A stretch of 22,134 bases of DNA from a virus, in the IMG/VR virus record IMGVR_UViG_3300032516_000222, positions 1 through 22,134 of that record; one strand, written 5' to 3'. Shown here piece after piece: positions 1,796-22,134 of this stretch. The notes under the pieces are model-generated. The model was given only the letters and a program-made list of their open reading frames with translations. It was not told where the DNA came from and did no database searches. The translations under genes and the position numbers were made by a program. Numbering within the stretch: the first letter of the stretch is position 1; every line of letters starts with the position of its first letter.

Positions 1796-2656
1796 GTGGG
1801 CATGGGATTTGAAGTAGTATACGCCCCCCAACGACCAATCTGGATGCCTGTTGACGGAACGCAAGTTCTGATGCAAGGCGGTCTGGTGTCTTTCGGTTTG
1901 CGTACTCCCGCTCAAACTGGTGGTGTTGCTATTCTTACGGCAGCTTCCGGTACAGCGGACGTGGGCGGTGGACCGAGAACACCTTACGGTGTTGTTATTG
2001 GAGACAATAACGCCACTCCGGTGAACACCTTGCTTGGTACTGCACTTGTAACAGTACAGACAATCACGGGTTGTGATACCGCTGCGGCTCAGTTGGCAAG
2101 AGATTGGCGAGGTGTTGAGGGAAGTATGTGGCCAAAGGGAGACCCCCAGCCAATGGTACAGGTCGCTTTGATCTCACCATTGACTGTTTTGAAGGGGTAT
2201 TTAAGAGGTAGTGCTACGGTTGGCACTACGGTAATAACAGAAACAACGGCAGCGAGTGGACTTTCAACTACGGGTGCGACCTTTGCGGCTACACTTGGGT
2301 TCACTTCAACTGCGAACTTCACAACGCTGGCTTACACATCAGGGAAGAACGCAGGAATTTATCGTATTCGTACTGATGGCGGTACAACCATCACCACGAA
2401 TACCAAGGCGTTCCCTTACACTCCCGTTGTGGGGGATAAGGCGAAGTCGGCGAATTTGAAATTAGGCGTTGGCCAGTTAAAGACCGATACGACTTATGGT
2501 CTTTGGATTGACAATGCAACTACGGCGGCAACGAACTATTGGACTGTAAACATCTATGAGATTAACCTTTGCACGGAGCCGGGTAACGAATATGTTATCT
2601 TCTCCTTCATGGGTGACCAGTTCGTAACAGCAAACAGCGGTCGGGTGACGACCTAA
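1796..2656 (+). CDS. Putative head decoration / stabilisation protein
   Basis: A 286-residue protein rich in Thr, Gly, Ala and Val with a beta-strand pattern throughout and few charged residues, no signal peptide and no membrane segment. I chose the GTG at 1796 because GGAGG (1783-1787) is 8 bases upstream; the ATG at 1802 would be 14 bases away. The gene sits directly before the major capsid gene, as lambda-type decoration genes do, and its beta-rich composition suits a protein binding the outside of the shell. No family-specific motif was recognised; a minor capsid or head-fibre protein is the main alternative. Confidence 0.5.
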   Translation: MGMGFEVVYAPQRPIWMPVDGTQVLMQGGLVSFGLRTPAQTGGVAILTAASGTADVGGGPRTPYGVVIGDNNATPVNTLLGTALVTVQTITGCDTAAAQLARDWRGVEGSMWPKGDPQPMVQVALISPLTVLKGYLRGSATVGTTVITETTAASGLSTTGATFAATLGFTSTANFTTLAYTSGKNAGIYRIRTDGGTTITTNTKAFPYTPVVGDKAKSANLKLGVGQLKTDTTYGLWIDNATTAATNYWTVNIYEINLCTEPGNEYVIFSFMGDQFVTANSGRVTT

Positions 2657-2668
2657 TAGGAGGCTATC

Positions 2669-3607
2669 ATGGGAAATCCCTTAACAAGTTCACAGTTTAT
2701 GCGGCTTCTGGACGACAGACTCCGCAAGGTTTATGTGGACTCTTTCAAGGAACTGCCTTCTATGGTCGATCAGCTTTTTGGCTCGATTAAATCAGACAAG
2801 GCATGGGAAGAGTTCTATGGTGTTGGTGCGGTTCCTGACATTCCTGCGTTCAATGGACTGCTGGAATACCTAAGTGTTGCCCCGCAATACTATACCCGGA
2901 TTGAACCTAAAGAGTTCGCCGGGGGTATCCAGATTGAACGTAAACTTATTGACGATGACCGTTATGACGTTATTAAGAGTCGACAGAATGGTCTGGTTCA
3001 GTCTTTGCTTCGGGTGAAGGAAAAATACGGTGCTCAGGCATTCGGATATGCCTTTAGTTCCGCCATGACCTTTGCGACTTCCGAAGAGGGTGTAGCATTA
3101 TGTTCATCTTCGCATACGACCAAGAGTGGTGCGGCAACGACGTCCGGTTTCAGTAATGCCGGGTCTACGGCGTTGTCCAAAACTTCGATTGGTGCAACCC
3201 GTATCATTATGAGGCAGTTCAGAAACGAAGTGGGCCAGAGGATCGTTATTGAACCCGATACCCTTATCGTTCCCGATACCCTCTACGATACGGCTTGTGA
3301 GGCCGTCGGCAAGAGCATGGATGCGAGTTCACAGCTTGACCCGGATTCCGGGAATAACAAGATCAATGCCCAATATGGTCGTTTCAAGGTCATTTCTTAT
3401 CCGAGACTTGACGACATTGATACGAATAATTGGTTCATGGTCGATTCAAAACAGATGAAAGAATATCTCATCTGGATTGATAGGGTGGCCCCGGACATCA
3501 CGACTGAAAAGGACTTCGAGTCCTTGATGTTCAAACAGGCCATTTATGCCCGGTTTGGGTACGGCTATACAGATTGGCGCTGGATCTACGGACAAGCGGT
3601 TGCGTAA
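2669..3607 (+). CDS. Major capsid protein, HK97 fold
   Basis: A 312-residue protein and the clearest anchor of the window. The N-terminal third is helical and charged (possible N-arm), followed by the central segment CSSSH at residues 145-149 leading into a Thr/Ser/Gly/Ala loop and then TALSKTSI. A Ser-rich stretch with SxH followed by a small-residue loop and TALS is typical of Mu gpT-like HK97-fold capsid proteins. The later part (PDTLIVPDTLYDTACEAVG, then a Tyr/Trp-rich end) fits the A- and P-domain strands. It would build the icosahedral shell in hundreds of copies. Strong ribosome site AGGAGG before ATG. No N-terminal maturation peptide is obvious. The gene is followed by two hairpins. 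Confidence 0.9.
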   Translation: MGNPLTSSQFMRLLDDRLRKVYVDSFKELPSMVDQLFGSIKSDKAWEEFYGVGAVPDIPAFNGLLEYLSVAPQYYTRIEPKEFAGGIQIERKLIDDDRYDVIKSRQNGLVQSLLRVKEKYGAQAFGYAFSSAMTFATSEEGVALCSSSHTTKSGAATTSGFSNAGSTALSKTSIGATRIIMRQFRNEVGQRIVIEPDTLIVPDTLYDTACEAVGKSMDASSQLDPDSGNNKINAQYGRFKVISYPRLDDIDTNNWFMVDSKQMKEYLIWIDRVAPDITTEKDFESLMFKQAIYARFGYGYTDWRWIYGQAVA

Positions 3608-3614
3608 TTTACTT

Positions 3615-3639
3615 GGTGGGGGTGTAAAAAGCCCCCGCC
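3615..3639 (+). terminator. GC-rich hairpin after the capsid gene (possible attenuator)
   Basis: GGTGGGGG at 3615-3622 pairs with CCCCCGCC at 3632-3639, with one G.U pair and an extra T.G pair closing a 7-nt loop GTAAAAA. It begins eight bases after the capsid stop. There is no clear U-run after the stem, so it may cause partial termination, act as an RNA-processing site or protect the capsid mRNA 3' end rather than be a full terminator. Confidence 0.45.
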
Positions 3640-3654
3640 ATTTAACCGGGTAAG

Positions 3655-3673
3655 CGGGAGTTAGATTCTCCCG
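3655..3673 (+). other. Second hairpin in the capsid/beta-helix intergenic gap
   Basis: CGGGAG (3655-3660) pairs with CTCCCG (3668-3673) around the 7-nt loop TTAGATT. CCGGG at 3646-3650 could compete for CCCGG at 3670-3674, giving an alternative fold. It lies 25 bases before the GGAGG of the next gene. Function unknown; a differential-expression element is plausible by position. Confidence 0.4.
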
Positions 3674-3711
3674 GGCATCAGTCCGATGTTCCTTTTAATG
3701 GAGGATAAAAA

Positions 3712-4665
3712 ATGGGATTAACGAATTTTCCACAAGGAGTAACGAGTTTTGGTGTTCCGGTTCTTCCGGCTGCGGACCCCGTTATTGCAGGTAATGTTTA
3801 TTTTGTCGGCAAGACGGCTTCGGGCAAATGGATTGCGGGAGTAGATGATCCCTCTTATGGGACTCTTGAAAAACCCTTTGCCACGATTGACTATGCCATT
3901 GGTAAGTGTACGGCAAGTCAGGGTGATGTCATTTATGTTCTGCCGGGGCATACGGAAACTATTGCTGCGGCAGGTGGGATTACCTGCGACGTCGCCGGGG
4001 TTTCGATCATCGGTCTTGGGCAGGGTAACTTAAGACCTACAATTACATGGTCGGAGACTGCATCGTCATGGCTCGTGACAGCGGCGAATGTTCTAATTAA
4101 GAACATCATTACCACGCTTTCAAAAGATGAAGTTGCTTCGATGTTTGCAGTATCGGCGGCAGGGTGTACCTTGGACAAGGTTAACTTTAAGGAATACGGT
4201 GCCAAGGGAGCAACGGGGCAGGCCATCCAGTTTCTTTTGACGACGGCAGATGCGAATGAACTTACGGTTTGCAACTGCTACCATAAACAGCAGACAGCGG
4301 CGAATGCGAATCAGGTGTGGATTGATCTTGTTGGCACGACCAATACCAAGATCATCAACAACACATTCATCATTCTTGCGAAGGCGGCTACTGCTTCTAT
4401 TTGTATCAGCGGTTCTACCGCCGTGGTGGGCATTGAAATCGCCTACAATAAGATCATGTGGACAGGGGCTACGATTACAAACATCATCAACTTGGTAACG
4501 ACTTCAACTGGGATCATCTACAACAACTACGTCGCTGGCGGTGCTGCGGTTCTCTTGGCGGCAACTATTGTTGGAGACCAATGCTTCCCGTTCAATAATT
4601 ACGCTACCAATACGTTGACTGGTTCCGGTACGCTGGCTCCGACTGTGGCTGACGTCGTAACTTAA
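3712..4665 (+). CDS. Right-handed parallel beta-helix protein, putative capsid-associated fibre or decoration
   Basis: A 317-residue protein. The segment DPSYGTLEKPFATIDYAIGK (about residues 46-65) followed by GDVIYVLPGHTETI is the characteristic entry of pectin-lyase-fold beta-helix proteins (a GT..KPFATI..AI turn, then a GD.IYVLPG strand). After it come short strands with Asn/Thr/Ile turns (TKIINNTFII, IEIAYNKIM, GIIYNNYV), as expected for stacked coils. No catalytic site is visible. In phages such proteins are tailspikes, head fibres or decoration proteins. Position directly after the capsid gene, with its own strong GGAGG site and flanking hairpins, favours an abundant head-associated protein over a tailspike. 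That role is an inference. Confidence 0.65.
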   Translation: MGLTNFPQGVTSFGVPVLPAADPVIAGNVYFVGKTASGKWIAGVDDPSYGTLEKPFATIDYAIGKCTASQGDVIYVLPGHTETIAAAGGITCDVAGVSIIGLGQGNLRPTITWSETASSWLVTAANVLIKNIITTLSKDEVASMFAVSAAGCTLDKVNFKEYGAKGATGQAIQFLLTTADANELTVCNCYHKQQTAANANQVWIDLVGTTNTKIINNTFIILAKAATASICISGSTAVVGIEIAYNKIMWTGATITNIINLVTTSTGIIYNNYVAGGAAVLLAATIVGDQCFPFNNYATNTLTGSGTLAPTVADVVT

Positions 4666-4679
4666 CCTTTAACCCCGAT

Positions 4680-4701
4680 GGGGCGGCGGGTAATCCGCCC
4701 C
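4680..4701 (+). terminator. GC hairpin after the beta-helix gene
   Basis: GGGGCGG (4680-4686) and CCGCCCC (4695-4701) form a perfect 7-bp stem with an 8-nt loop. CCCC at 4673-4676 can pair instead with GGGG at 4680-4683, a possible competing hairpin. No U-run follows, so termination would be weak or factor-dependent. It starts 15 bases after the beta-helix stop and overlaps the ATG at 4678. Confidence 0.4.
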
Positions 4702-4710
4702 ACTTATAAT

Positions 4711-5610
4711 ATGAATATCTCCGCTTCATGTATCTTAAACGAGAGATCCGTTGAAATAGATGGTGTCTTAAGGGATGTCTATGAACTTGGCTCGCTCCAT
4801 GTCCTTCCGAGAGAGGATGGTCTGGGGAGATTTATCGTAAGTTATGCAGAAAGGAGGGCCGAAAAGGATGGTAAGTATTGTGTCGTTGGTCTTGCCCTAC
4901 CGGAGACTTATGACAATGTTTATCGTAAGTATGGGTGGATTGATAATGGTCACTATGCTGGCAGGGTGATAATGACTTCCATTCCTGTGGACACGATAAA
5001 GGTAACGAATGTATGGGAACTTGACCTTAATGAAATTAAAAGGGCAAGAGAGGCGCTGCGTCTTTTCCTTACCTTGCCGATAACCGGAAAAGTTTTGGAT
5101 ATTGGCAGTTCGGACGGGTCTCATTCAAAGTATATGCGGTATCAGGGCATGGACGTCGTTACTCTGGATCACAACCACGATGCCGACATCAACGCCGTAT
5201 GGCCCATTAAACTTGATTATAAAGTAGATGCCGTATGGTGCAGCCACATCCTTGAGCACAGCCGCCATCCCGGGGCATTCCTTGATGCTATAGCGGATGT
5301 CTTGAATCCCGGTGGTTGGTTGGCCATCACAGTCCCCCCGGCAAAGCATGAAGTGGTCGGCGGACACTTATCAATCTGGAACGCTGGTCTTTTACTTTAT
5401 AATTTAATTCTCGCAGGGTTCGATTGCAGGGATGCGAAGGTGTATAGTTATGATTACAATGTGTCCGTCATTGTCAGATACAGAAAAGCCATATTACCTA
5501 AATTAAATTATGATTGTGGCGATATCGAACTTTTGCAAGCGTTCTTCCCCATGCCTGTCTATCAAGGGTTTAATGGTATAATCTCTCAACTGAATTGGAA
5601 TAGCGAATGA
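4711..5610 (+). CDS. Class I SAM-dependent methyltransferase (Methyltransf_11-like)
   Basis: About 299 residues from the ATG at 4711. Residues 1-120 form an N-terminal part I do not recognise. Then come the Rossmann-type SAM motifs: VLDIGSSDGS (residues 128-137, motif I), VTLDH with acidic D153 (motif II), WCSHILEHSRHP (about 176-187) and LNPGGWLAITVPP (motif after strand 5). The substrate cannot be read from sequence; a sugar, peptide or small metabolite is more likely than DNA because no DPPY/NPPY motif is visible. Start choice: an in-frame ATG at 4678 sits inside a GC hairpin and lacks a ribosome site; 4711 lacks a good site too, so the start is uncertain. The stop overlaps the next start by ATGA, so the two products are probably used together. 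Confidence 0.8.
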   Translation: MNISASCILNERSVEIDGVLRDVYELGSLHVLPREDGLGRFIVSYAERRAEKDGKYCVVGLALPETYDNVYRKYGWIDNGHYAGRVIMTSIPVDTIKVTNVWELDLNEIKRAREALRLFLTLPITGKVLDIGSSDGSHSKYMRYQGMDVVTLDHNHDADINAVWPIKLDYKVDAVWCSHILEHSRHPGAFLDAIADVLNPGGWLAITVPPAKHEVVGGHLSIWNAGLLLYNLILAGFDCRDAKVYSYDYNVSVIVRYRKAILPKLNYDCGDIELLQAFFPMPVYQGFNGIISQLNWNSE

Positions 5611-7635: not shown

Positions 7636-10600
7636 ATGCAGAAAGTTGATAAAACTCTCGTCCCATTTAATTACCCCCTCAATGGTAGGTTGATTACGAA
7701 ACTTGATGGCACTTTATTGCCAGATGCCCATTTTCAAGTTCTTGAGAACATGAGGTATAATGATGGAGGCATTGAGGGCATCGGTGGGATGACAAAGATA
7801 AACGCCGTTGCCACGACTTATACCAAGATCCAGAATGGTTTCCATTTTAAAAAGACTTCGCCCATAACGGAAAACCATATCTTTATCCAGACAAGTAGCG
7901 GAGCAAATTCCAAGATACTCAAATCTGATAATACTACGTCTATACCCGCTCAAGATACTTTTTCGGATTTCATAACCCTTCCTACGAACAATACCGTATA
8001 TTTTGCCGAAGCCCCGGATCAATCAATGGTCATGTGTGATGGTTATACGAATTATGTCTATTCCGGAGATGAGTATCGTTCTGCCAAAGTAGTCAATTTC
8101 GATCCTGCGGGAACCTTTTTTAAAGACCATACCGTTATAGCAAATAATAATCTTACGGATGCGAGTAATATCTTCATTCTATCGGGAGTGGCGGGTGGTA
8201 TAGATACGAACACGAAGGCTCTATATCATTTCAATGACGCATTAACGGATGCTACGGCAGGGGCGCATACGCTTACGGCAGTAGCCGCCCCGAGTTATGT
8301 TGCGGGTAGGTTTGGTAACGCAATTAATTTGAATGGTTCGACTCAATATGTCTATACCGCCGACCATGCTGATTTTAACCTTGCAGGGAACGTATATACG
8401 ATTGACTGCGTAATTCACCCGGACGATTTTACTGCCAACCAACGTCCGATTTATTATCAATATGCGACAGACCATCTTGATTCTTTTTTGATCTATATTG
8501 ACATAACTGGCGCTTTGGGGATTCTTGTCGAAAAGACAGGAGATGCAGATTTTAATGTCCAGACTCCAGATGGAGTCATTACGGCAGGACAGACACACCA
8601 TATAGCCATTGTCCAGAATAATACCATTTTATATATGTTCATAGATGGTATACTCCAATACCAAGGTACTGCCCCGACTATTGTCCAAAATTATACCAGT
8701 AATATATGTATCGGAACAGATACGCCGGGTGGTGGTGGCGGCGTAAATGACTGGTTTGATGGTTGGATAGAAGAGTTCAGGGTATCTAATTCCGCCCGAT
8801 GGTCAATAAACTTCACGCCTCCGCTTACTCCTTACGGAACGAGTACGAATGTCGTAGATATGTATATCGGTGCTACGAGGCCTTTGAGTGGGGTTAAGTT
8901 CTATCCCAATGTCGCCAATACTGCAAACACGTCAGCGACTCCTGCATTGGCTTATTATTGGAATGGTTCTGCATGGACGAGCGTGACGTCTTTGGTAGAT
9001 GGGACGTTGGATACGGCAACGAGCACGAAAACATTGTCACAGGATGGGACGATCTCATTTACGTCTACGGTTTTGACTGCAAAGGTAAAGATCATCAATG
9101 AGAACTTGGCCTATTATTATCGTTTTACCTTTACGGGTATTGACGTAACGACTGCGCTTGAAATGGTTACGGTAAAAGCGCCTGTCCAGAAACTCGTGGA
9201 TATCTGGGATGGGATGCCAAGGCAAATATATTCTTACCTTGTCTATACGGCGGCGTATGCTGATTATACTACAAATGTTTATGCACTTGATTACGACTCT
9301 GCGGATGCGACTACTTATGTAAATATCGGAGCTTTAACTGCGGCTCAATATACTTATGTTGGTTTTAATGAAAGACTTATTGGCGTTAAAATCTTTCTTG
9401 GTGGTACGAGTGTCAATACAAACGCTTGTGTCGCTTATGTAGATTATTGGAATGGTACGACTTGGGCGAATGTCGGTGCGATAGATGATGGCACTACGGT
9501 AGGTGGTGTCTCTTTTGCCCGGACAGGAACGATAACTTGGAACGATCCGGGTGTTACGAATGAATTTACGAACTCCGTTGGTAATAGTGCCCAATGGTAT
9601 TATTACCGTATAAGATTCTCAGCCACGCTTTCCGCTACGGTAAGGATAGACCATATTGCAGGGATTCCTGTTCAGGTTAATTTAAGACCTTATCGTTATC
9701 CTATCCTTTGGCAGAATAGACTTTGGCTCTTGAACGATCAGGGTGCCAATAGAAACTCAGCCATAGGGTCGAGTTATGGAACCGTTTGTGTTTTTAATGG
9801 AAACGATAGTGGTATTTTGACCTTTGGGGGTATGAAGGATTTACAAGCGGCGGCTTCCTTATACACCCGTTATGGTGGGACGATCTATGAGAACCTCGTA
9901 GTCTGTAAAAATAGTGAAACTTATTTGATTGATGGAACGTCCTTTACGGGAGATCAGTCTGGTGCTGGTGCTTATGTCGTTTATAAGATTTCTTCTACGA
10001 GAGGATGTATAGCTCCTTTGACGATGGTTATGTGCGATACGGGTTATGAGGTATCCCCGGGGCTTACGAAACATACTTTGGTTTGGTTATCGGCATCGGG
10101 TGTTATTATGTTCGATGCTAATTCTATGATCGAAGTTTCAAATGATATTGGTGATAGGTTTGAAGTCAAGAGTTCCACATATCTGAACCCCTTGTATTCT
10201 AATCAGACCGCATCGTTTTATGATTCCGTAAGGGGCGAGTATCATTTAATGCTTGCTACGGGAGCCTCTACGACCCCGAATGAAGAATGGGTCTATGATG
10301 TCATAAGGAAGAAATGGTATCAGATAAAAAGAGGGGCTAAATATCTTTGGTCTGGTTTTGAAATAGAAGATTCAGGGGGTAATAAATACGCCTATGGCGG
10401 GACGAGTGATGGATTTATTGAAAGACTTGAATACGGGACTACGCTTGATGGTGTAAATATCACTTATAAAATAAGACTTCCGGACAGTCTTTTGAATACT
10501 TCATGGGATTCAAGAAAAGAAATGAGACAAGTAAGGGTCGTTGGGATCTGTAAAACGACTACGACACAAAAGATCGCCATAAGTCATTATGCCGATGGTT

Positions 10601-14310: not shown

Positions 14311-17300
14311 ATGGCAGATATATTCGCAGATATGTGGCCTGTCAATTCAAAGACTGCGCCTTTTGATGTTACGCTGAAACAGGGAGAGGATGAGAATATT
14401 GTTGCGGGAGATATAGCCGCCGGACGCAGACACCCGGGATTATTTGACGATATGTTTCAAAAGGCAAGTAGCCAACCCATTCAAAAGAAGGTGGGGCTAT
14501 TTGATGATATGTTCCCGCAGAAAGAAGAAGAACCCCAGCAACCCGGACAACTGGTCAATCCATTCCCTGTTGCGTGGGATGCGGCAAAGACTATCGGGAG
14601 TGGGTTTACTTCATGGATTCCTGCCGGATACTCATTCCTCACTCCATTTGAAATGAATCCACAGCAGTTGCCAAAACTACGGGGGATCGGGAAGACCATT
14701 GCGGCCTTGGTTCCGGGTAGCGGTGTGCCCCTTGGGGATTGGATGAAAGGGCTTCAGGAGGCATCTAAGACAGCACTTGAGATCCAAGATGCTCTTGTGA
14801 TTGAGCCAAAAACCGAAAGAGGGGCTATGGCGGCGGAGGCTGTTGCAAAACCCATTGCATGGCTTAAAGAAATTGGGGATGAGAATGGATTATATTATGA
14901 TCGCTTAGAAGAAGAAGCGACCGCCCCCGGCGATAAAGCAATTTACAGGGCGTTAGCAGCGGCCTCAAGGTTTGGCGGTGAGGCGGCTCCGTTTCTTCTT
15001 CCTGTTGCATTTAAATACGGGAAAGCAAAAGTCACCTCTACCATTAAAGAAATCCCCCGCAAGTTCAAAGAAAACCTTTCTATGGATAAATCGGTCCCCC
15101 CCGAAATGCTATCAGGAGAGGAACTCTTGTCCGAAAGGCGCAATACAAAGGGGATATTTGATGATCTCTTTCAAAAAGAGTCTCTCAAATCTGATGCGTC
15201 CCTTAATATTCAAGAGACAGCCAAAGATCAGGGGACAGAAGTCAAGACCAAGACAATCGGGGACAGAGAAGTAATAGAGAAATCCCCGGAACCGGGTAAG
15301 GTATCTAAACCAGCAGAAGGTGTTAAAGAGAAACTCCCCTATGAAATGACTCCGATGGAGTATGTTAAGGCGGGAGAATCAGATATCGCTGGTGGGCATA
15401 CGAATGAGACTGCCCTGTTGATGGAGCATAAGAAACTGGTTGAGTATGCGGCCTCGAAGGGCGTTGAAATCCCAGCAGACATCCTTAAAATCTACCGTCA
15501 AGAGCCGTGGGCCGTTGAGCTTATAAAGAAGCGCAAATCAAAGAGCGCCGCTGATGAGATGGTCGAAGCCGCAGAGGACACTCCCCTTTATAAAGCAATA
15601 GAGGAAATCAAAAGACAGGGCGGCATTAGATATGCCGATATGGTTAATCTCTTTGGAGAGAAGGCAGATTGGAAGGGCAATAAAAGGTTAACCACCTTGT
15701 CGAAGGATATGCCGGGACTGATTAGTAAAAAAGGCGGGGCTTTAATCGACAGGATAGCTGATGAATATGGGTTTGCATCTGCCGATGAACTTGTTACCGC
15801 TATCATTGAAAGGAAGTCAAAGAGGGAAATCGCAAGTAAGGTTAAGGACGATTTCAACTCTCTATATGGTGAGGAGATAGCCCTTGCCAAAAAGAACATG
15901 GTTAAAACCCCTAACGGAGTCCCTGCCGCAGATCTTTCCGTTGGCGATATTTTAATGAAAGACGGAAAACCCATGCGGGTTGGAGTGATCCACGGGGGGG
16001 AGGTCCATATCATGGATCACAATAAAATCCTCCATACTGTGGATATGCTGGATGTGGTTCCTGCGGATGTGGCAAGGGTTAAAAAGGGTATTTCTAAGTC
16101 TTCTGGCCCAACGATAGACAAAATCCCCGAAGCAGAGTTTTCCACTACAAGTGGAAACTATGGTCTAAAGGAAGCCCTATTGGACCTTAATGATATTCTG
16201 GGGAAAACGGGAGAGGCGAGCGGGATAAGGGGTGGCAGGGAGATTACCCCGGAACAGTTAGCCAAGAGAGACAGGCTTTCAAGGTTCCTTGACAATGCGA
16301 TTGCGGAGGCAATGCAGAAGGGTTTAAGGCTTGCCGACCAGTTAAAGGTCATGGGGATAACGGATACAGATTTAAACAGAATGATGGCATTCCAATCTGA
16401 AAGAAACCGACAAGCGAGAGGAGTCGAAAGAACCGACTTCCCCCAAGAAGCAGATGGCGCTACTTCAATTAAGAATGCAGAAACACTTACGGACAGGCAG
16501 AACAGAAATCTTCAAGAAGTCAGGGATATACTCAGGCGGGGGGATGAGGCTATCCACGATGAGGGGGTAAGAAGGGTTGCGTCCGGTGAAGTGGACCCGA
16601 GAATGATGGCCCGAAGCATTGTTGAGAACCCCAGAGCGATATCGGGTGAAGACGCTTATGGTCTTTTATATGACAGAATTACCTTGAAAAAGGAACACAT
16701 GGCAGCCAGAGACGAGATAACTTCTGCTCGTGCCCAAGGTGATGTCATTAAGGGAGCCGAAGCACAGACAAGATTACTTGCCATAGAGGAGGCAATGGCT
16801 ATCAATGAAGCCGCCACCGTTTACGCTGGGACCATATCGGCCCAAGGGTTAAGGGCAAGACGGGCTTTAATGTTAATGGACTATTCTCTTGTTGAAATGG
16901 TTTCGAGGGAGATGAGGGACAATGGCGGGAAACCCCTTACCCCGGAGTATAGAGCGGCGCTGGAGAATTTCTCTAAACGCATAGAAGAACTACAAACAAG
17001 GCTCGGAGATAGAGACCTTAAGATTAAGCAATTAGAATCTGCTGCGGCTGTCGAAAGGATGAAGAGGGAGTTCGCTAAAGAGGAAAGATTTAAAAAGAGA
17101 ACTGATAGACAGTATGCCCTTCGGTCTGAGTATGGCGGATATCTAAACGAACTCAATGTGGCATTAAAATCAGCCGCCAGAGGTGAATCGCTAAGTGTTG
17201 GCCTTCCCCCAGAGGCAGTTAAAGCCCTTGGGAAGATGGCAAAGAACAAGGTTGAATCGGGGATTATAACAGTTGAGGGGATTATTGATTCGATCTACTC

Positions 17301-19476
17301 TGATATCAAGGAGATGGGGATTGAATTAAGTAAGAGAGACATCCGTGACGCTATCTCTGGTTATGGAAAGACTTCTAAGATGAGCCAAGAGGAGTTAAAG
17401 GTCCAGTTAAGAGAAGTCAAAAGGCAGATGCGGCTCATTTCTGGACTTGAAGATGCACAGTCCGGTCAGGCTCCATTAAGGAGTGGTCTGCAAAGAGATA
17501 TCCCCAGCGATACAGTAAGGGAATTGGATCGTCAAGTTAAGCAAGCCATGAGGGATAGCGGGATTGATTTTACCACTACCAGAACACCCGAACAGCAATG
17601 GAAAACTTCTCTCGATGCGATTAAAACTGGATTAAAGAATCAGATAAGAGACCTCGAAAAACAGATCGCAACAGGCGAGAAAACCCCCAAGAAGACGGGC
17701 GTTAAGTATGACGCAGAGGCGCTGGGATTAAAGGAGAGAAGAGATTCCCTAAAAGCCATAGTCCAAGAGATGGAAGGAAAACCCGAGATCTCCGTTGAGG
17801 TAAGGATTAAAAACGCCCTTAGTGCTGTTGAGAGATCTATAAAGGAATACGAGAGAAGGATCGGGGAGTCTGACCTTGAACCCCAGAAGAGGGTAAGCAA
17901 GACTCCTGAGACCCCAGAATTGAAGGCCGCAAGAGAGACAAGGGATGCCTTAAAAGAGACCTACAAGGAAATGCAGAGAGAGGCACGACCGAATAAGACC
18001 CCCGAAGAGGTCGCTCAACAGGCATGGAAAACAAGGAACAGAAACAAACTTGCCGAACTCGAAAGACGGCTCGAAGAGGGTGATTTTGAAACTACAAAGA
18101 GAAAGCCAGTCGAACTCGATAAAGAGTCGATGGAGATCAAATACAATCTCGAAAAGACAATTAGAACCTACAATGAGGCCAGATTTAAAGAAGCCCTAAA
18201 GAGACGGTCAAAGGGAGAGAAGATGTTCTCCTATATAGGGGAAGTCCAAAGTCTCGTAAGGGCTTTATGGACGAGTTTCGACTTGTCGTGGTTGAGGCAG
18301 GGTGCCCCGATAGGGATAGGCCATCCTATTTTAGCAGTTAAGTCTTTATATACGGGTGCGAAAGCATTTAACGCAAAGCAGGGCTTTATCTCAATGCAAG
18401 AAATTAACAATCGTCCAAACGCTACGAGATATAAAAGAGATGGTCTCGATCTTACCACGGAGAAGTCTGGGGCCAACATGATCGAAATGGAGGAAATGTA
18501 TCAATCTCGCTGGGCCGAAAAGATCCCCGGAATAGCACAGTCGCAAAGGGGGTTTACTGTTGGCTTAAATAGGTTAAGGGTTGATGCCTATGATGCTTTT
18601 GCGGATATAATTGAAAACCCCGGAATATTCAGAGGGATGCTTGGGCTTAAACCCAGAGAAATGACATTGGCGGAAGGAAAGGCTATCGCTAATCTGGTGA
18701 ATGTGGCAACCGGAAGAAGTAGCGTTGGGAAAAGAAGTCAGGCTATTGTAGGACTTAATCAGTTTCTATTCGCCCCACGACTGGTTATGAGCCGCTTCCA
18801 GTTATTGGCTGGACAACCCCTTTACAGGGGGACAATGGCAACGAGAATGATTGTTGCTGAACAATACGCAAAGTTCTTAATCGGGGGTGCCCTGTTAATT
18901 CAGTTGGCCCTTGTTGCTGGTGCCGATGAAATTGAAACCGATCCGACCTCCTCTGATTATCTTAAGATTAAATTCGGGAATACACGGATAGACCCATTTG
19001 GTGGATTACAACAACCCCTTGTATTTATAAATAGGCTTATCTATGGACACACAAAGACCCAACAGGGCAAGTTAGTCCCAATAAGGGATGACTACAATAC
19101 CGGATTGGGCGATAAACCCTACGGCAAACCAAACGCATTTGACTTGACCGCAAGATATGTCAGATCGAAACTCGCCCCCGTACCGGGCATGGTTGCTGAT
19201 ACGGTTACGGGACAAAATATTATGGGACAAAAAGTAAATGCCTATGACCTACCGGGCAAGCTCATTACCCCAATGACCTTTAATGATATTTTTGGTTCCC
19301 TCAAGGAGAAAGGACTTGCTGGAGGGGTTGCACTTGGACTGCTTTCAACAATAGGTATGGGGGTTGGGAGCTACGAGCCGGGGGTTGCTGAATCAACCTT
19401 CTTCCAAGATCTTCGTAAAGAGTTCATCCCCGATGATGATGGAAGAAGGCGCAGGGCAGGTCGAAATAGGAGATAG
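14311..19476 (+). CDS. Giant ejection-type / large polyvalent-type protein, 1721 residues
   Basis: The largest gene. Residues 1-71 hold MADIFADMWP and two copies of GLFDDMF (43-49, 62-68); a third copy, GIFDDLF, is at 281-287. Residues about 80-250 are hydrophobic and helical. About 428-500 is a domain with IKRQGGI and ISKKGGALIDRIADEYGFA, typical of helical domains in large phage polyvalent proteins; about 544-575 is a small beta unit (SVGDILMKDGKPMRVG). Residues about 860-1290 are charged coiled coil, including three related 65-70 residue units (1097-1290). About 1307-1710 is a conserved-looking C-terminus (ALWTSFDLSWLRQGAPIGIG; hydrophobic helix 1521-1538), ending in RRRRAGRNRR, suited to DNA contact. 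Such proteins in this place are injected with the genome. No enzyme motif is certain. Confidence 0.7.
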   Translation: MADIFADMWPVNSKTAPFDVTLKQGEDENIVAGDIAAGRRHPGLFDDMFQKASSQPIQKKVGLFDDMFPQKEEEPQQPGQLVNPFPVAWDAAKTIGSGFTSWIPAGYSFLTPFEMNPQQLPKLRGIGKTIAALVPGSGVPLGDWMKGLQEASKTALEIQDALVIEPKTERGAMAAEAVAKPIAWLKEIGDENGLYYDRLEEEATAPGDKAIYRALAAASRFGGEAAPFLLPVAFKYGKAKVTSTIKEIPRKFKENLSMDKSVPPEMLSGEELLSERRNTKGIFDDLFQKESLKSDASLNIQETAKDQGTEVKTKTIGDREVIEKSPEPGKVSKPAEGVKEKLPYEMTPMEYVKAGESDIAGGHTNETALLMEHKKLVEYAASKGVEIPADILKIYRQEPWAVELIKKRKSKSAADEMVEAAEDTPLYKAIEEIKRQGGIRYADMVNLFGEKADWKGNKRLTTLSKDMPGLISKKGGALIDRIADEYGFASADELVTAIIERKSKREIASKVKDDFNSLYGEEIALAKKNMVKTPNGVPAADLSVGDILMKDGKPMRVGVIHGGEVHIMDHNKILHTVDMLDVVPADVARVKKGISKSSGPTIDKIPEAEFSTTSGNYGLKEALLDLNDILGKTGEASGIRGGREITPEQLAKRDRLSRFLDNAIAEAMQKGLRLADQLKVMGITDTDLNRMMAFQSERNRQARGVERTDFPQEADGATSIKNAETLTDRQNRNLQEVRDILRRGDEAIHDEGVRRVASGEVDPRMMARSIVENPRAISGEDAYGLLYDRITLKKEHMAARDEITSARAQGDVIKGAEAQTRLLAIEEAMAINEAATVYAGTISAQGLRARRALMLMDYSLVEMVSREMRDNGGKPLTPEYRAALENFSKRIEELQTRLGDRDLKIKQLESAAAVERMKREFAKEERFKKRTDRQYALRSEYGGYLNELNVALKSAARGESLSVGLPPEAVKALGKMAKNKVESGIITVEGIIDSIYSDIKEMGIELSKRDIRDAISGYGKTSKMSQEELKVQLREVKRQMRLISGLEDAQSGQAPLRSGLQRDIPSDTVRELDRQVKQAMRDSGIDFTTTRTPEQQWKTSLDAIKTGLKNQIRDLEKQIATGEKTPKKTGVKYDAEALGLKERRDSLKAIVQEMEGKPEISVEVRIKNALSAVERSIKEYERRIGESDLEPQKRVSKTPETPELKAARETRDALKETYKEMQREARPNKTPEEVAQQAWKTRNRNKLAELERRLEEGDFETTKRKPVELDKESMEIKYNLEKTIRTYNEARFKEALKRRSKGEKMFSYIGEVQSLVRALWTSFDLSWLRQGAPIGIGHPILAVKSLYTGAKAFNAKQGFISMQEINNRPNATRYKRDGLDLTTEKSGANMIEMEEMYQSRWAEKIPGIAQSQRGFTVGLNRLRVDAYDAFADIIENPGIFRGMLGLKPREMTLAEGKAIANLVNVATGRSSVGKRSQAIVGLNQFLFAPRLVMSRFQLLAGQPLYRGTMATRMIVAEQYAKFLIGGALLIQLALVAGADEIETDPTSSDYLKIKFGNTRIDPFGGLQQPLVFINRLIYGHTKTQQGKLVPIRDDYNTGLGDKPYGKPNAFDLTARYVRSKLAPVPGMVADTVTGQNIMGQKVNAYDLPGKLITPMTFNDIFGSLKEKGLAGGVALGLLSTIGMGVGSYEPGVAESTFFQDLRKEFIPDDDGRRRRAGRNRR

Positions 19477-19554
19477 CCACCCACTACATTTTGTTGTATC
19501 ACTAACGGACACTTATAAATGTGGCGCTTAAGTTGACCCAAATGTAGTGGGTGG
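19477..19554. repeat. Perfect 15-bp inverted repeat between convergent operons
   Basis: CCACCCACTACATTT at 19477-19491 is the exact reverse complement of AAATGTAGTGGGTGG at 19540-19554; the centre is 48 bases. The left arm starts at the first base after the stop codon of the giant gene; the right arm encodes PPTTF near the C-terminus of the converging minus-strand gene. It may work as a bidirectional terminator, but the centre is long and the 3' T-run is short (TTTAT on the plus strand only). A small palindromic element or recombination site are alternatives. Confidence 0.7.
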
Positions 19555-19743
19555 TTTATCCGTAACTTCCATAAAAGCCTTTTTAATATTATCAGACGAA
19601 TACTCCATCCTAAACAGATCCCTAAAATGACCCCTTCTTGCTTTGAAATAACTTTGAAACCCCGGCAATCTTGAACGATCCAATCCTTCCAAGGGAGCCT
19701 TTATACCCCCAAAGATGGCGTTGGGCGATTTCTGCTCTTTCAT
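19528..19743 (-). CDS. Small basic protein, last gene of minus-strand operon
   Basis: I chose ATG 19743, giving 71 residues (MKEQKSPNAIFGGIKAPLEG...): it overlaps the upstream gene's stop as ATGA and has a nearby purine-rich site (AAAGG...AAGGG). A longer in-frame version from 19803 (91 residues) lacks a ribosome site and overlaps the upstream gene by 64 bases. The protein is basic, with a helical centre (FQSYFKARRGHFRDLF) and no cysteine or membrane segment. Its last codons, TDKPPTTFGST, cover the right arm of the 15-bp inverted repeat. No family recognised. Confidence 0.55.
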   Translation of the reverse strand: MKEQKSPNAIFGGIKAPLEGLDRSRLPGFQSYFKARRGHFRDLFRMEYSSDNIKKAFMEVTDKPPTTFGST

Positions 19744-19970
19744 CCCTTGGCCTTTCTTTCTGCCTTGACCATTCTTAAGGCCGGGGATTCTTTCTTGAGC
19801 CATCTTGAACTTTTAACTTTACCAAGGATCTTCTCTCTTTTCTTAATCAGCCCTTCGGCCATTTTCCAAGAATAATAAATAGAAACGGCAACGCTGGCTG
19901 AAATCAGCCCCGTAAATGCTATGGCTATCCCTATCTGAAACACTACTTGTAAGAACAGTTCGATGGTCAT
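19740..19970 (-). CDS. Small single-pass membrane protein
   Basis: A 76-residue protein with one strong membrane helix at about residues 8-34 (VVFQIGIAIAFTGLISASVA) and a Lys/Arg-rich cytoplasmic-type tail (KKREKILGKVKSSRWLKKES). Positive-inside bias predicts the N-terminus outside. Strong AAAGGAGG site; its start overlaps the upstream stop by ATGA, as its stop does with the downstream start. Size and build would suit a phage holin-like, exclusion or inner-membrane host-takeover protein. No endolysin lies next to it, so a holin call is not supported. Confidence 0.7.
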   Translation of the reverse strand: MTIELFLQVVFQIGIAIAFTGLISASVAVSIYYSWKMAEGLIKKREKILGKVKSSRWLKKESPALRMVKAERKAKG

Positions 19971-20530
19971 GGTGTCCTCCTTTCAACGCCCTCTATTGTT
20001 TCTGCCTTATATGCCCTTCGTTCCCTTTCTATAATTTCTCTTGTCCTATCTTCTAACTCATATGGCACGCATACTCCACCCTTCCCTCCTAATACTGCTT
20101 CGACTATCCTTATCACTCGTTCAGGAGACATATTCCGTTCTCCCGTAGCATCTTTTGCCATCATTTTTATCTTCTCCAACGCCTCGGTCAGTTCCTTGAT
20201 ATGGGCTTCCTTATCCGCAAGCATCTTTCTTAAATCCTGCTCCTCAAGCCTCCACTCTCCAGACGCATCATCATAACATCCTTGGTTGTAAGCAATCTGC
20301 TTGTCCTTCTCGGCAATCACACCCCGTAAATCATCGTGTAGCAGTTTAGCAAGGCGAATCTGCTCTCCTATCTGTTCGTCCTTCTCCGCGATTACATCTA
20401 CATGGGTCACGATAATCCGCTGCCACTGCTCGACTTCGGCAAGGTGGTCGGTGTAGAGGACATAATCACCATCCTCATCTTCATCCATGAAAAAGTTGTT
20501 ATTGAAAAATGTCGGCGTGAATCTGTTCAT
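19967..20530 (-). CDS. Coiled-coil accessory protein with AEKD repeats
   Basis: A 187-residue protein from ATG 20530, chosen because a junction-repeat ribosome site (AAGGAGGGGGT) lies just upstream and the ATG overlaps the upstream stop as ATGA; the longer frame to 20605 has no such support. The N-terminus is Asn/Phe-rich then acidic (MDEDEDGDY). It continues with YTDHLAEVEQWQR and two VIAEKDxQI units (47-54 and 71-78), then charged coiled coil (about 95-125) and a short globular end (SPERVIRIVEAVLGGKGGVC). The DHLA.V...AEKD segment is also found in the 72-residue protein at 21425-21643, so the two share ancestry in part. Function unknown. Confidence 0.65.
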   Translation of the reverse strand: MNRFTPTFFNNNFFMDEDEDGDYVLYTDHLAEVEQWQRIIVTHVDVIAEKDEQIGEQIRLAKLLHDDLRGVIAEKDKQIAYNQGCYDDASGEWRLEEQDLRKMLADKEAHIKELTEALEKIKMMAKDATGERNMSPERVIRIVEAVLGGKGGVCVPYELEDRTREIIERERRAYKAETIEGVERRTP

Positions 20531-20697
20531 ACCCCCTCCTTCTGTGCGGCCAGCCGATATTCCATTATTTCTATGCGTATGATAGCGGCGCACAATAGCA
20601 ACCACATGGCGGGGGCAAGTTCAAACACCCAACATACCACTGCGCTTATCAGACAAACTATGTAGAATACTTCGATAAATTTCTGCACTTTGCTCAT
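20527..20697 (-). CDS. 56-residue two-helix membrane protein
   Basis: Short gene read directly from the sequence: MSKVQKFIEVFYIVCLISAV..., with two hydrophobic helices (about residues 7-27 and 30-45) and a charged tail ending LAAQKEGV, the tail encoded by a junction repeat. An AAGGAGGGGT site lies 3 bases before ATG 20697. The stop overlaps the start of the next gene as ATGA (20527-20530). Size and two-helix build resemble small holins or other phage membrane peptides, but there is no adjacent lysin to support a function. Confidence 0.65.
   Translation of the reverse strand: MSKVQKFIEVFYIVCLISAVVCWVFELAPAMWLLLCAAIIRIEIMEYRLAAQKEGV
20531..20549 (-). repeat. Junction repeat copy 1 (RBS plus C-terminal tail)
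   Basis: Full core CCGCACAGAAGGAGGGGGT. It encodes AQKEGV of the 56-residue protein and gives the ribosome site of the 187-residue protein (ATG 20530). Confidence 0.85.
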
Positions 20698-20700
20698 TTT

Positions 20701-20718
20701 ACCCCTCCTTCTGTGCGG
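20701..20718 (-). repeat. Junction repeat copy 2, one G shorter
   Basis: CCGCACAGAAGGAGGGGT, one G less than the core, followed by AAA before ATG 20697. In the tail frame it reads TAQKEG then TAA; that frame is open for 28 codons but has no start codon. Confidence 0.85.
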
Positions 20719-20724
20719 TTAAAT

Positions 20725-20806
20725 AAGGGCGGGCGGGATTGGTGAGAGTCCGGTATTCAACTCCGTTCCTCCCGCTTTGAGTCCATCATGCTTTCGCACC
20801 GCCCTT
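20725..20806 (-). ncRNA. Putative structured RNA element in a gene junction
   Basis: Read on the minus strand, AAGGGCGG (20806-20799) pairs with CCGCCCTT (20732-20725). Directly stacked on it come a small hairpin TGC-GAAA-GCA with a GNRA loop (20798-20789) and, on the other side, a 6-bp stem GCGGGA (20775-20770) with TCCCGC (20738-20733), whose 31-nt apex can form further short pairings (GAGT/ACTC, CGG/CCG). Stem strands abut without spacers, which is unusual for random sequence. It lies between a 50-residue gene and the 56-residue membrane gene. Could be a leader, processing element or decayed gene end; not a standard tRNA. Confidence 0.35.
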
Positions 20807-20814
20807 TGTTCAAG

Positions 20815-20967
20815 TTACTTCGTCAACCATTCGTGCAGCTCTTTTGCCGCACTAAGCACTTCAGCCGATGTAGGCTTGTTTTCGCCCTTTCCGGCTGTTG
20901 CACTCTGACACATAATCAGAGTCGCAATCCGCAACGATTCGAGTTTGTTTAATACGCTGTCAGTCAT
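20815..20967 (-). CDS. 50-residue small protein, unknown function
   Basis: Short gene read directly: ATG 20967 preceded by AAAGGAGAA with good spacing, stop TAA at 20815. The product (MTDSVLNKLESLRIATLIMC... then PTSAEVLSAAKELHEWLTK) is helical, with a mildly hydrophobic first helix and a second helix near the end. No motif recognised. It starts 20 bases after the stop of the 79-residue gene and is followed by the structured junction element, without ATGA coupling to the next gene. Confidence 0.6.
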   Translation of the reverse strand: MTDSVLNKLESLRIATLIMCQSATAGKGENKPTSAEVLSAAKELHEWLTK

Positions 20968-20986
20968 GTGCTTTCTCCTTTCCGAC

Positions 20987-21226
20987 CTATTGGTCTATTT
21001 TGGCTACCCCCTCCTTCTGTGCGGTTACTTCCTCAAGGTTATCATCAAAATACTTTCTGGCAACATACCATTGATCTTGATGGTTTTTGGGATTTCTGGC
21101 AATCATCCCCATATCAGATTCGGGGTGATCCGTGTCGCTCACGCTGATTCCGGTTAAATCTTCACCCTTCACGTAGGGCCTCATTTCTGATAAACCTTTC
21201 CTGCGATACTGTTTGAAATTATCCAT
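20987..21226 (-). CDS. Conserved small phage protein (RPYVKGEDL family)
   Basis: A 79-residue protein: YRRKGLSEMRPYVKGEDLTG, then ISVSD, MGMIARNPKNHQDQWYV and a helical end. The pattern YRRKG..EMRPY..GEDL.G.SVS...........MIARNP.N..DQWYV is one I recognise from small uncharacterised proteins in many phage early or accessory regions; its function is unknown to me. Good AAAGGAG site; overlaps the upstream gene by 8 bases. The end VTAQKEGVAKIDQ contains the junction-repeat tail read in frame, but here the repeat is not followed by ATG and the frame runs six codons past it before stopping. Confidence 0.7.
   Translation of the reverse strand: MDNFKQYRRKGLSEMRPYVKGEDLTGISVSDTDHPESDMGMIARNPKNHQDQWYVARKYFDDNLEEVTAQKEGVAKIDQ
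21006..21024 (-). repeat. Junction repeat copy 3, inside a coding sequence
   Basis: Full core, in frame in the 79-residue protein as AQKEGV but followed by AGCC instead of ATGA, so no gene starts here; the next gene starts at 20967 from a different AAAGGAGAA site. Confidence 0.85.
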
Positions 21227-21428
21227 TGATCTTCTCCTTTCTCACCCATAAGAAAAATGCTAAATTAGCAACATCCACCCAATCACCCTGTTCTACGTTT
21301 TTAAGCAGCCTTGCCTTTAATGTTCTAACTGATAAGGTGTTCCATCCAACCCACCCATCTTCTTGTTTTGTAGCCAGCACCAATTCCATCGCAGCGAAAA
21401 ACTTTCCAAGCCATGTAAATAACTTCAT
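21219..21428 (-). CDS. Small protein with a MazG-like C-terminal signature
   Basis: A 69-residue protein from ATG 21428, chosen for the GGAGGGGGT site and ATGA overlap with the upstream stop. Residues 11-62 read FAAMELVLATKQEDGW...L..RLLKNVEQGDWVDVANLAFFLW. The order AMEL.L...D..GW...L...L..RL......D..DVAN.A..LW matches a phage family that resembles MazG-like nucleotide pyrophosphohydrolases, but the acidic ExxE pair expected in the catalytic helix is absent (RLLKNVEQ). It may therefore be a shortened, non-catalytic relative or a distinct family. An N-terminal amphipathic helix (MKLFTWLGKFF) precedes it. Confidence 0.6.
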   Translation of the reverse strand: MKLFTWLGKFFAAMELVLATKQEDGWVGWNTLSVRTLKARLLKNVEQGDWVDVANLAFFLWVRKEKING

Positions 21429-21643
21429 ACCCCCTCCTTCCTCTCTGCAAGCCAATCAAGATACTCGCGCTTCTCCGTTATGCCGGGAACATACCCTATC
21501 AAAAAGGCAACCATCTCCCGCATTTCTTTGAGTAATTTATCCTTCTCCGCAACTACGGCAAGGTGGTCGGCTTTCAGCACAACTTCTTCCCGGTGTTTCT
21601 TCGCCTGTATCAACTCATGTGCATTATAGGTCTGTATTATCAT
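21425..21643 (-). CDS. Small charged helical protein with DHLA/AEKD segment
   Basis: A 72-residue protein from ATG 21643, directly after a shortened junction repeat. Residues 24-37 read KADHLAVVAEKDKL, partly matching YTDHLAEVEQ and VIAEKD in the 187-residue protein; the encoding DNA shares a 15-bp exact match (CGGCAAGGTGGTCGG at 21556-21570 and 20437-20451). The end is LDWLAERKEGV, so the tail is a variant of the junction-encoded AQKEGV. Its stop overlaps the next start by ATGA. Function unknown; probable coiled coil. Confidence 0.65.
   Translation of the reverse strand: MIIQTYNAHELIQAKKHREEVVLKADHLAVVAEKDKLLKEMREMVAFLIGYVPGITEKREYLDWLAERKEGV
21429..21450 (-). repeat. Junction repeat copy 4, diverged
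   Basis: Reads TTGCAGAGAGGAAGGAGGGGGT: the purine-rich half is kept and the CCGCAC half is altered, changing the tail to AERKEGV. It serves the 69-residue gene (ATG 21428). Confidence 0.7.
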
Positions 21644-21659
21644 ACCCCCTCCTGTGCGG
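21644..21659 (-). repeat. Junction repeat copy 5, three bases shorter
   Basis: CCGCACAGGAGGGGGT, lacking one AAG codon-sized unit. It provides the ribosome site of the 72-residue gene (ATG 21643). Confidence 0.8.
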
Positions 21660-21665
21660 TTAGCC

Positions 21666-22109
21666 TCACGGAACATATTGTTCATTATCTATTGCAATCT
21701 GTCTGGTGATATTACCCTTTTTTATTTTTACCAAACGATCAATAAGTTCATCGTATAACTGCACGCCAACCGGATTCATCGTTTCCCGTGTAGTTATAAA
21801 TATACGGGCATGTTGAAGAGTAGTAAGAATATTATCGTCTAACGTCTCGCTCGGTGTGTCAGTCCCGCTATAAGATGCTATTGGTTCAGCCCCCAGGGCT
21901 TTTCTGGCAATCGAAATAGCAGCAAATATATTTAATGATGTGGCTACCCTTTTTAGACTCGATTTAAGTGCTACAATTTCCCTGTCTTGCTGCTTTAATA
22001 TGTTTAACATTCTTGCCATGTATTCTCTTTTTATGACTGTATCTGGCGCAAGGACAAGCTCCTGCATAAACTCCACAAATTCATAATCGTCTAATAATGT
22101 TGGTTTCAT
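21666..22109 (-). CDS. 147-residue helical protein, unknown function
   Basis: ATG 22109 lies directly after a full junction repeat (AAGGAGGGGGT). The product has an acidic start, an amphipathic helix (EYMARMLNILKQQDREIVAL), a hydrophobic helix (SLNIFAAISIARKALG), a Ser/Thr/Asp linker and a helical end (LYDELIDRLVKIKKGN). No catalytic motif. Unlike its neighbours it ends EQYVP, 22 bases before the next start; the junction repeat after it is not read in its frame. Confidence 0.65.
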   Translation of the reverse strand: MKPTLLDDYEFVEFMQELVLAPDTVIKREYMARMLNILKQQDREIVALKSSLKRVATSLNIFAAISIARKALGAEPIASYSGTDTPSETLDDNILTTLQHARIFITTRETMNPVGVQLYDELIDRLVKIKKGNITRQIAIDNEQYVP

Positions 22110-22132
22110 ACCCCCTCCTTCTGTGCGGTTAC
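22106..22132 (-). CDS. C-terminal end of a further gene at the right edge (partial)
   Basis: Only the last eight codons plus stop are visible: VTAQKEGV, TGA at 22106-22108, overlapping the ATG at 22109 as ATGA. The same tail and overlap are seen at two complete junctions in this block, which supports a gene entering from the right. Confidence 0.4.
   Translation of the reverse strand, partial: VTAQKEGV
22110..22128 (-). repeat. Junction repeat copy 6 at right edge
   Basis: Full core preceded by TAA as in copies 2, 3 and 5 (TAACCGCACAG). It serves the 147-residue gene and encodes the tail of the gene entering from outside. Confidence 0.85.
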
Positions 22133-22134
22133 GG

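Follow-up and report, generated by a model that had tools for sequence, protein, structure and literature searches.

The window examined here is the whole of IMG/VR virus record IMGVR_UViG_3300032516_000222, a linear fragment of 22,134 bases, and it features a short repeat, here called the joint, that links small genes on the minus strand near its end. The joint combines a stop codon, a Shine-Dalgarno (SD) sequence and a start codon, it occurs six times within 1.6 kb, and it is also found in other phages beside different genes. It is probably a translation element that several phages carry as a shared boundary sequence and that was spread by recombination, along with turnover of the surrounding genes. 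The plus strand of the window up to 19476 contains head genes, tail genes, and a gene for a 1721-amino acid (aa) protein, and the last 2.6 kb is a run of small genes on the minus strand. The joint would serve there as a ready-made translation unit that terminates the small gene before it and initiates the gene after it. Starting would occur by ribosome recruitment at the predicted strong SD, with stop-start coupling where TGA overlaps ATG; strong translation and coupling are both what is generally expected of such SD sites and ATGA overlaps.

Sequence and reading frames of the joint

The initial annotation described a six-copy repeat, and a reiterated, strand-specific junction repeat is indeed present at 20.5–22.1 kb with every copy on the minus strand, but only three copies are exact. 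The exact 19-mer is found at 20531, 21006, and 22110. The copy at 20700, which had been placed at 20701, lacks one G. The copies at 21429 (CTTGCAGAGAGGAAGGAGGGGGTATG) and 21644 (TAACCGCACAGGAGGGGGTATG) are diverged; the former has only the SD-to-ATG half in common with the other copies and the latter is 3 nucleotides (nt) shorter. When up to 3 mismatches are allowed, four matches to the 19-mer occur in the window (20531, 20700, 21006, and 22110), compared with none in 100 shuffles. The joint is absent from the other ~20 kb of the window on both strands, including the 19.5 kb of structural genes, which use other SD sequences. The flanks of all pairs of copies are at background identity, both upstream and downstream.

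The copies read CCGCACAGAAGGAGGGGGT and their alignment gives the consensus TAACCGCACAGAAGGAGGGGGTATGA. The full unit is TAA-CCGCACAGA-AGGAGG-GGGT-ATG(A), which consists, in order, of a TAA stop, a 9-nt linker, AAGGAGG, the 4-nt spacer GGGT, and an ATG overlapped by TGA; the 5' extension of the repeat reaches TAACCGC. An ATG directly follows the copies at 20531, 21429, 21644, and 22110 and comes a few nt later at 20700, so that SD-start placement is seen at five of the six copies, in agreement with the annotation's statement that an ATG comes after most of them. No ATG follows the copy at 21006 (GGGGGTAGCC). Folding of the 50–61 nt of RNA around each copy stayed at shuffle level (z near 0) with no hairpin. 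The region 19400–22134 has no terminator-like site and its promoter-like sites are at or below chance, and Rfam and tRNA searches gave no match.

The three reading frames in which an upstream gene can enter the joint have different outcomes. The first stops at the TAA, the second adds the tail TAQKEGV and stops at the TGA that overlaps the ATG, and the third fuses into the next gene, so that one frame in three escapes stopping at the joint. Six joints are entered by an upstream open reading frame (w21429, w21006, and w20531 in the window, L005_187 and L005_466 in contig L005, and one in contig G019). The TAQKEGV frame is used at four of these and the TAA at two, while the fusing frame is not used; gene d is one of the four, but there the TGA has been lost. 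The claim that the repeat doubles as a C-terminal tail is upheld by gene b, which runs through the joint to end in ...LAAQKEGV at 20527, by gene f, which ends in ...AERKEGV at 21425, and partly by gene d. It fails at 21644 and 20700, where the upstream gene ends before the repeat. At 22106 the contig provides 25 nt before the ATG and two frames are allowed, one of which meets the TAA while another reads VTAQKEGV to a stop. The (T/A)AQKEGV tail would mostly have arisen incidentally where upstream genes run into the joint.

The joint in other phages

Scores for the joint were compared with a 6-Mb Markov null; a background from genome loci was set aside, since part of the motif had been used to fetch these loci. 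The phage records compared are fragments or are of uncertain completeness. A loose pattern scan of viral contigs retrieved 26 contigs, in which G019 scores 50, L005 scores 49, and the other 24 score 22–36, and the maximum of the Markov null is 32.

L005 has two joints on one strand at consecutive gene junctions, TTAACCGCACAGGAGGGGATATGA at 187 and TAACCGCACAGAAGGAGGGGGTAAATG at 466. A coiled-coil protein ends at 187 in ...AALTAQEGI, and its TGA overlaps the ATG of the following gene. At 466 the TAA of the joint terminates a 90-aa protein and is followed by the ATG of a PAPS-reductase-like gene. The proteins of L005, including its own terminase, portal, and capsid, have no BLAST similarity to those of the window or its capsid relatives except for an endonuclease motif. 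The long type and the 3-nt-shorter type of joint are both present in the window and in L005. The joint is hence common to phages independently of the adjoining genes, either because it travels or because it is kept. Additionally, because the copy at L005:187 ends a coiled-coil gene, its sequence suggests that the joint may have begun as the end of such a gene.

The capsid relatives of the window comprise 16 loci with 56–96% capsid identity that have the structural gene order in common with it, and none of the window's small genes was found in them at the thresholds used. L023, the nearest of the relatives identified (96% capsid identity), is a contig of 5 kb that does not include the joint region. 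The capsid relative G019 has one joint, TTAACCGCCACAAGGAGGGGGTATG, in which the TAA is the actual stop of the upstream gene, and two genes past it lies a gene weakly related to gene a (33% over 87 aa, E of 8e-6 in a small search). The capsid relative G025 features only the core, AGGAGGGGGTATG, three times within 0.53 kb at early junctions. Apart from the weak gene a relative, the genes beside the joints of G019 and L005 and beside the cores of G025 differ from those of the window. The check proposed at the outset, for the same core at early junctions with different genes between the copies, thus came out positive in G019 and L005, and in G025 for the SD-to-ATG half.

Searches with shorter words gave two viral matches to a 17-mer, in L005 and L006; the L006 match looks like chance, with another sequence context and no start after it. 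A 16-mer has 109 matches in cellular genome contigs (257 Gb, both strands), where chance alone predicts ~120; each contig has one match, and no score exceeds 44, which argues against a cellular source of the joint. The best matches in the named-phage and plasmid collections have E of 0.6 and 2, respectively, and none is a full joint.

Two further features of L005 were observed. Its large terminase gene (1817–4564) is apparently interrupted by an intein-like insert, with the terminase match resuming near residue 449. Between the portal and head genes lies a GIY-YIG/NUMOD3 homing endonuclease (8491–9162).

Gene d and the other genes of the array

Gene d (20987..21226, minus strand, 79 aa) has its own SD instead of a joint and reads through joint copy 4 (GGGGGTAGCC, 21004..21027, minus strand), the exact 19-mer without an ATG, which gives it the tail TAQKEGVAKIDQ before its stop. 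The protein family ends directly where the joint begins in 15 of 16 viral relatives (NLE(P/E)A and a stop, or the equivalent position), and these lack the tail; the remaining relative, L018, also extends past that end, into sequence unrelated to the joint. Gene c has its own SD ~40 nt beyond this copy. The simplest reading of these sequences would be that a joint was spliced onto the end of gene d and that gene c took the place of whatever this joint originally started, leaving copy 4 as an apparent relic fused to gene d. Genes d and e are each found singly in unrelated phages, gene d with none of its window neighbours within the fetched flanks. The gene d family (window 20987–21226; L007–L022) is a widespread small phage protein with the pattern LSEMRPYVKGEDL..ISVS...IARNPKNH.DQWYVA.KYFDDNLEPA. 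Members from viral contigs and from phages of Tenacibaculum and Rhizobium show about 41–81% identity, and the protein has no Pfam or PHROG family match.

The other features of the array, all on the minus strand, are given here in the direction of transcription. Joint copy 1 (TAACCGCACAGAAGGAGGGGGTATG, 22107..22131) is the ribosome site of gene g (21666..22109, 147 aa, no family), and the gene upstream of it lies beyond the contig end. The stop of gene g is a few nt before joint copy 2 (TAACCGCACAGGAGGGGGTATG, 21641..21662), which is of the 3-nt-shorter type also seen at L005:187. Gene f (21425..21643, 72 aa, coiled-coil type) runs through joint copy 3 (21426..21451), in which the upstream half is diverged, and its TGA overlaps the ATG of gene e (21219..21428, 69 aa). 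Gene e is of the phrog_8298 type (E of 7.5e-6) with relatives in Pseudomonas, Rhizobium, and Acidovorax phages. After gene d comes gene c (20815..20967, 50 aa), which has no family and uses its own SD. Joint copy 5 (TAACCGCACAGAAGGAGGGGTAAAATG, 20695..20721) has one G fewer and a more distant ATG. It is followed by gene b (20527..20697, 56 aa, small membrane-type), which passes through joint copy 6 (CCGCACAGAAGGAGGGGGTATG, 20528..20549) and whose TGA overlaps the next ATG; this copy is without the TAA present in other copies. The array ends with gene a (19967..20530), which encodes a coiled-coil protein of 187 aa.

Protein searches of viral contigs with genes g and a found no relatives. Pfam and PHROGs searches of the array genes gave weak matches only, except for gene e (phrog_8298 and phrog_16645, both of unknown function). 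The description of these genes as serving host takeover or defence is therefore unfounded, since neither database assigns a function to any gene between the joints.

Genes c and b are separated by a 97-nt gap (20719–20811, minus strand) that has a predicted closed multi-branched fold (z of −2.6), in which AAGGGCGG...CCGCCCUU closes the structure around a hairpin (GCGAAAGC) and an inner stem (GCGGGA/UCCCGC). No Rfam family matches the gap at E up to 1. In the structural module a methyltransferase-like protein (LDIGSSDGSHSKYM...VWCSHILEH; 4678–5610) is encoded between the capsid and tail genes and has relatives in only some of the capsid relatives (L035 with 72% and L045 with 49% identity). The 1721-aa protein at the end of that module (14311–19476) has no Pfam or PHROG match. 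Its sole relative is weak (33%, residues 976–1290) and is found in G019 and G022, and a search of viral contigs with the end of the protein returned no relatives.

Explanations of the joint and known systems

The joint recurs at several junctions of unrelated small genes that run along the minus strand. Spread by recombination, through short homology or illegitimate events, would be the best reading because the joint is shared while its flanks and the phages that carry it are unrelated. Several observations weigh against this reading. No genome pair was found with genes swapped precisely at the joint, three junctions of the array (19970, 20967, and 21226) use other ribosome sites, and the copy at 21006 starts no gene. 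Because the window is a fragment of 22 kb and L005 starts inside its own joint region, copy numbers are per fragment. Additionally, the early-gene content of capsid relatives without the joint differs equally and completely, and the joint is therefore not required for gene turnover. The proposal that the joint is swappable thus keeps its stop/SD/start anatomy, its unrelated flanks, and its sharing with L005 and G019, but recombination at the joint is plausible but unproven.

A more specific proposal is that the joint is a frame-tolerant exchange site traded between unrelated phages, in which 25 nt provide a stop, a ribosome site, a start, and a harmless C-terminal tail, so that short-homology recombination could insert or remove small genes with no need for a recombinase, and inserted genes would be expressed immediately. 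This proposal is tentative; if true, the joint would be a recombinase-free analogue of a cassette array.

It is rather unlikely that the joint is a regulatory start-associated element, in which a factor from the phage or the host, or a modified ribosome, recognises the sequence before selected early genes and identity among copies reflects selection and not exchange. Such an element would account for the conservation of the non-SD bases (CCGCACAGA) across copies and phages, for the different SDs of the structural genes, and for the restriction to one strand of the non-structural region, as in mycobacteriophage repeats (PMC3203893). It fits poorly with the startless copy at 21006, with the retention of the SD-to-ATG part where the upstream half is missing (21429) or replaced (G025), and with the lack of structure at the joints (z near 0), and the analysis yielded no candidate binding factor. 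Local duplication, in which tandem duplication of a gene with its joint was followed by divergence or replacement of the genes until the joint was the sole trace, is improbable. Genes a and f each come after a joint and both encode coiled coils with the similar pieces VVLKADHLA.VAEKD and YVLYTDHLAEV (pairwise BLASTP E of 0.01), but no paralogy among the early proteins is significant (the best, a versus f, has an E of 0.06) and this, together with the unshared flanks, argues against simple tandem duplication. Identity over 19–23 nt beside fully diverged genes also misfits an old tandem event, and L005 is left unexplained. Convergence on one host's favoured strong ribosome-binding site, suggested by the near-perfect SD at the centre of the joint and by the single occurrence of AGGAGGGGGTATG alone in several unrelated viral contigs, is very improbable given that the TAA and the 9-nt linker ahead of the SD are also shared, that L005 and G019 score 49–50 against at most 36 for the other pattern matches, and that the window's structural genes lack the joint.

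How phages gain and lose small accessory genes with expression intact is an open question, for which current models invoke either boundary sequences or random recombination whose products are filtered by selection. As a probable shared boundary sequence, a joint that recurs in one genome and in a structurally dissimilar phage, with unrelated genes on both sides, offers a concrete and searchable test of these models. It could be used as bait for accessory-gene intervals and as a site for breakpoint mapping.

In ATGA stop-start overlaps the upstream TGA lies over the next ATG, the SD is inside the end of the upstream gene, and translation of the two genes is coupled. The joint has the same TGA-ATG overlap and the same SD placement within the upstream gene end, but ordinary overlaps do not feature a single 23–25 nt sequence repeated over unrelated genes and phages. 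The early promoter and stem-loop cassettes (PeSLs) of T4-type phages, which combine a promoter with a stem-loop/terminator, were proposed to shuffle small early genes (Arbiol et al. 2010; Comeau et al. 2014; as summarized in PMC4503421). PeSLs resemble the joint in being reiterated regulatory motifs between small early genes. They are transcription cassettes, whereas the joint is a translation element, and the early promoter and stem-loop terminator of a PeSL were not found in the copies or in 19400–22134, where there is no hairpin at the joints and no promoter signal above chance.

The nearest known kinds are the mosaic boundary sequences and the start-associated sequences (SAS) of mycobacteriophages, of which the SAS are nearest. 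Classical boundary sequences occupy corresponding positions in related genomes. The joint resembles those of lambdoid mosaics as a short identical sequence joining unrelated genes, and different genes lie beside it in G019 and L005 (and beside the core in G025). It differs in that one sequence occupies several junctions of one genome, and exchange at the joint would be a presumed event. Recombination at boundary sequences is an accepted, partial model of phage mosaicism, and homologous recombination at a gene-boundary sequence would leave both genes intact (PMC3233612).

The SAS of cluster K mycobacteriophages are SD-containing repeats before various non-structural genes that are conserved past the SD and whose function is unproven (Pope et al. 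2011, PMC3203893; 188-genome survey 2025, PMC12699233). SAS and the joint are both short, non-palindromic SD repeats that lie a few bases before an ATG in one orientation, at non-structural genes only; they are attached to different gene families, and the upstream stop codon may fall inside the repeat. The SAS position of 3–7 bp before a start, in one orientation and in the non-structural half, is found at five of the six copies, all six of which are on the minus strand. The sequences differ, as the SAS consensus GGGATAGGAGCCC (PMC3203893) was not found in the copies at up to 2 mismatches. About half of the SAS are accompanied by 17-bp imperfect inverted repeats (ESAS), and the joint copies have none, their flanks sharing nothing and folding at shuffle level. 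SAS mostly follow long intergenic gaps, whereas gaps at the joint are mostly near zero and the joint often encodes the end of the upstream gene. Unlike the SAS, the joint is shared with L005, a phage of no detectable structural similarity.

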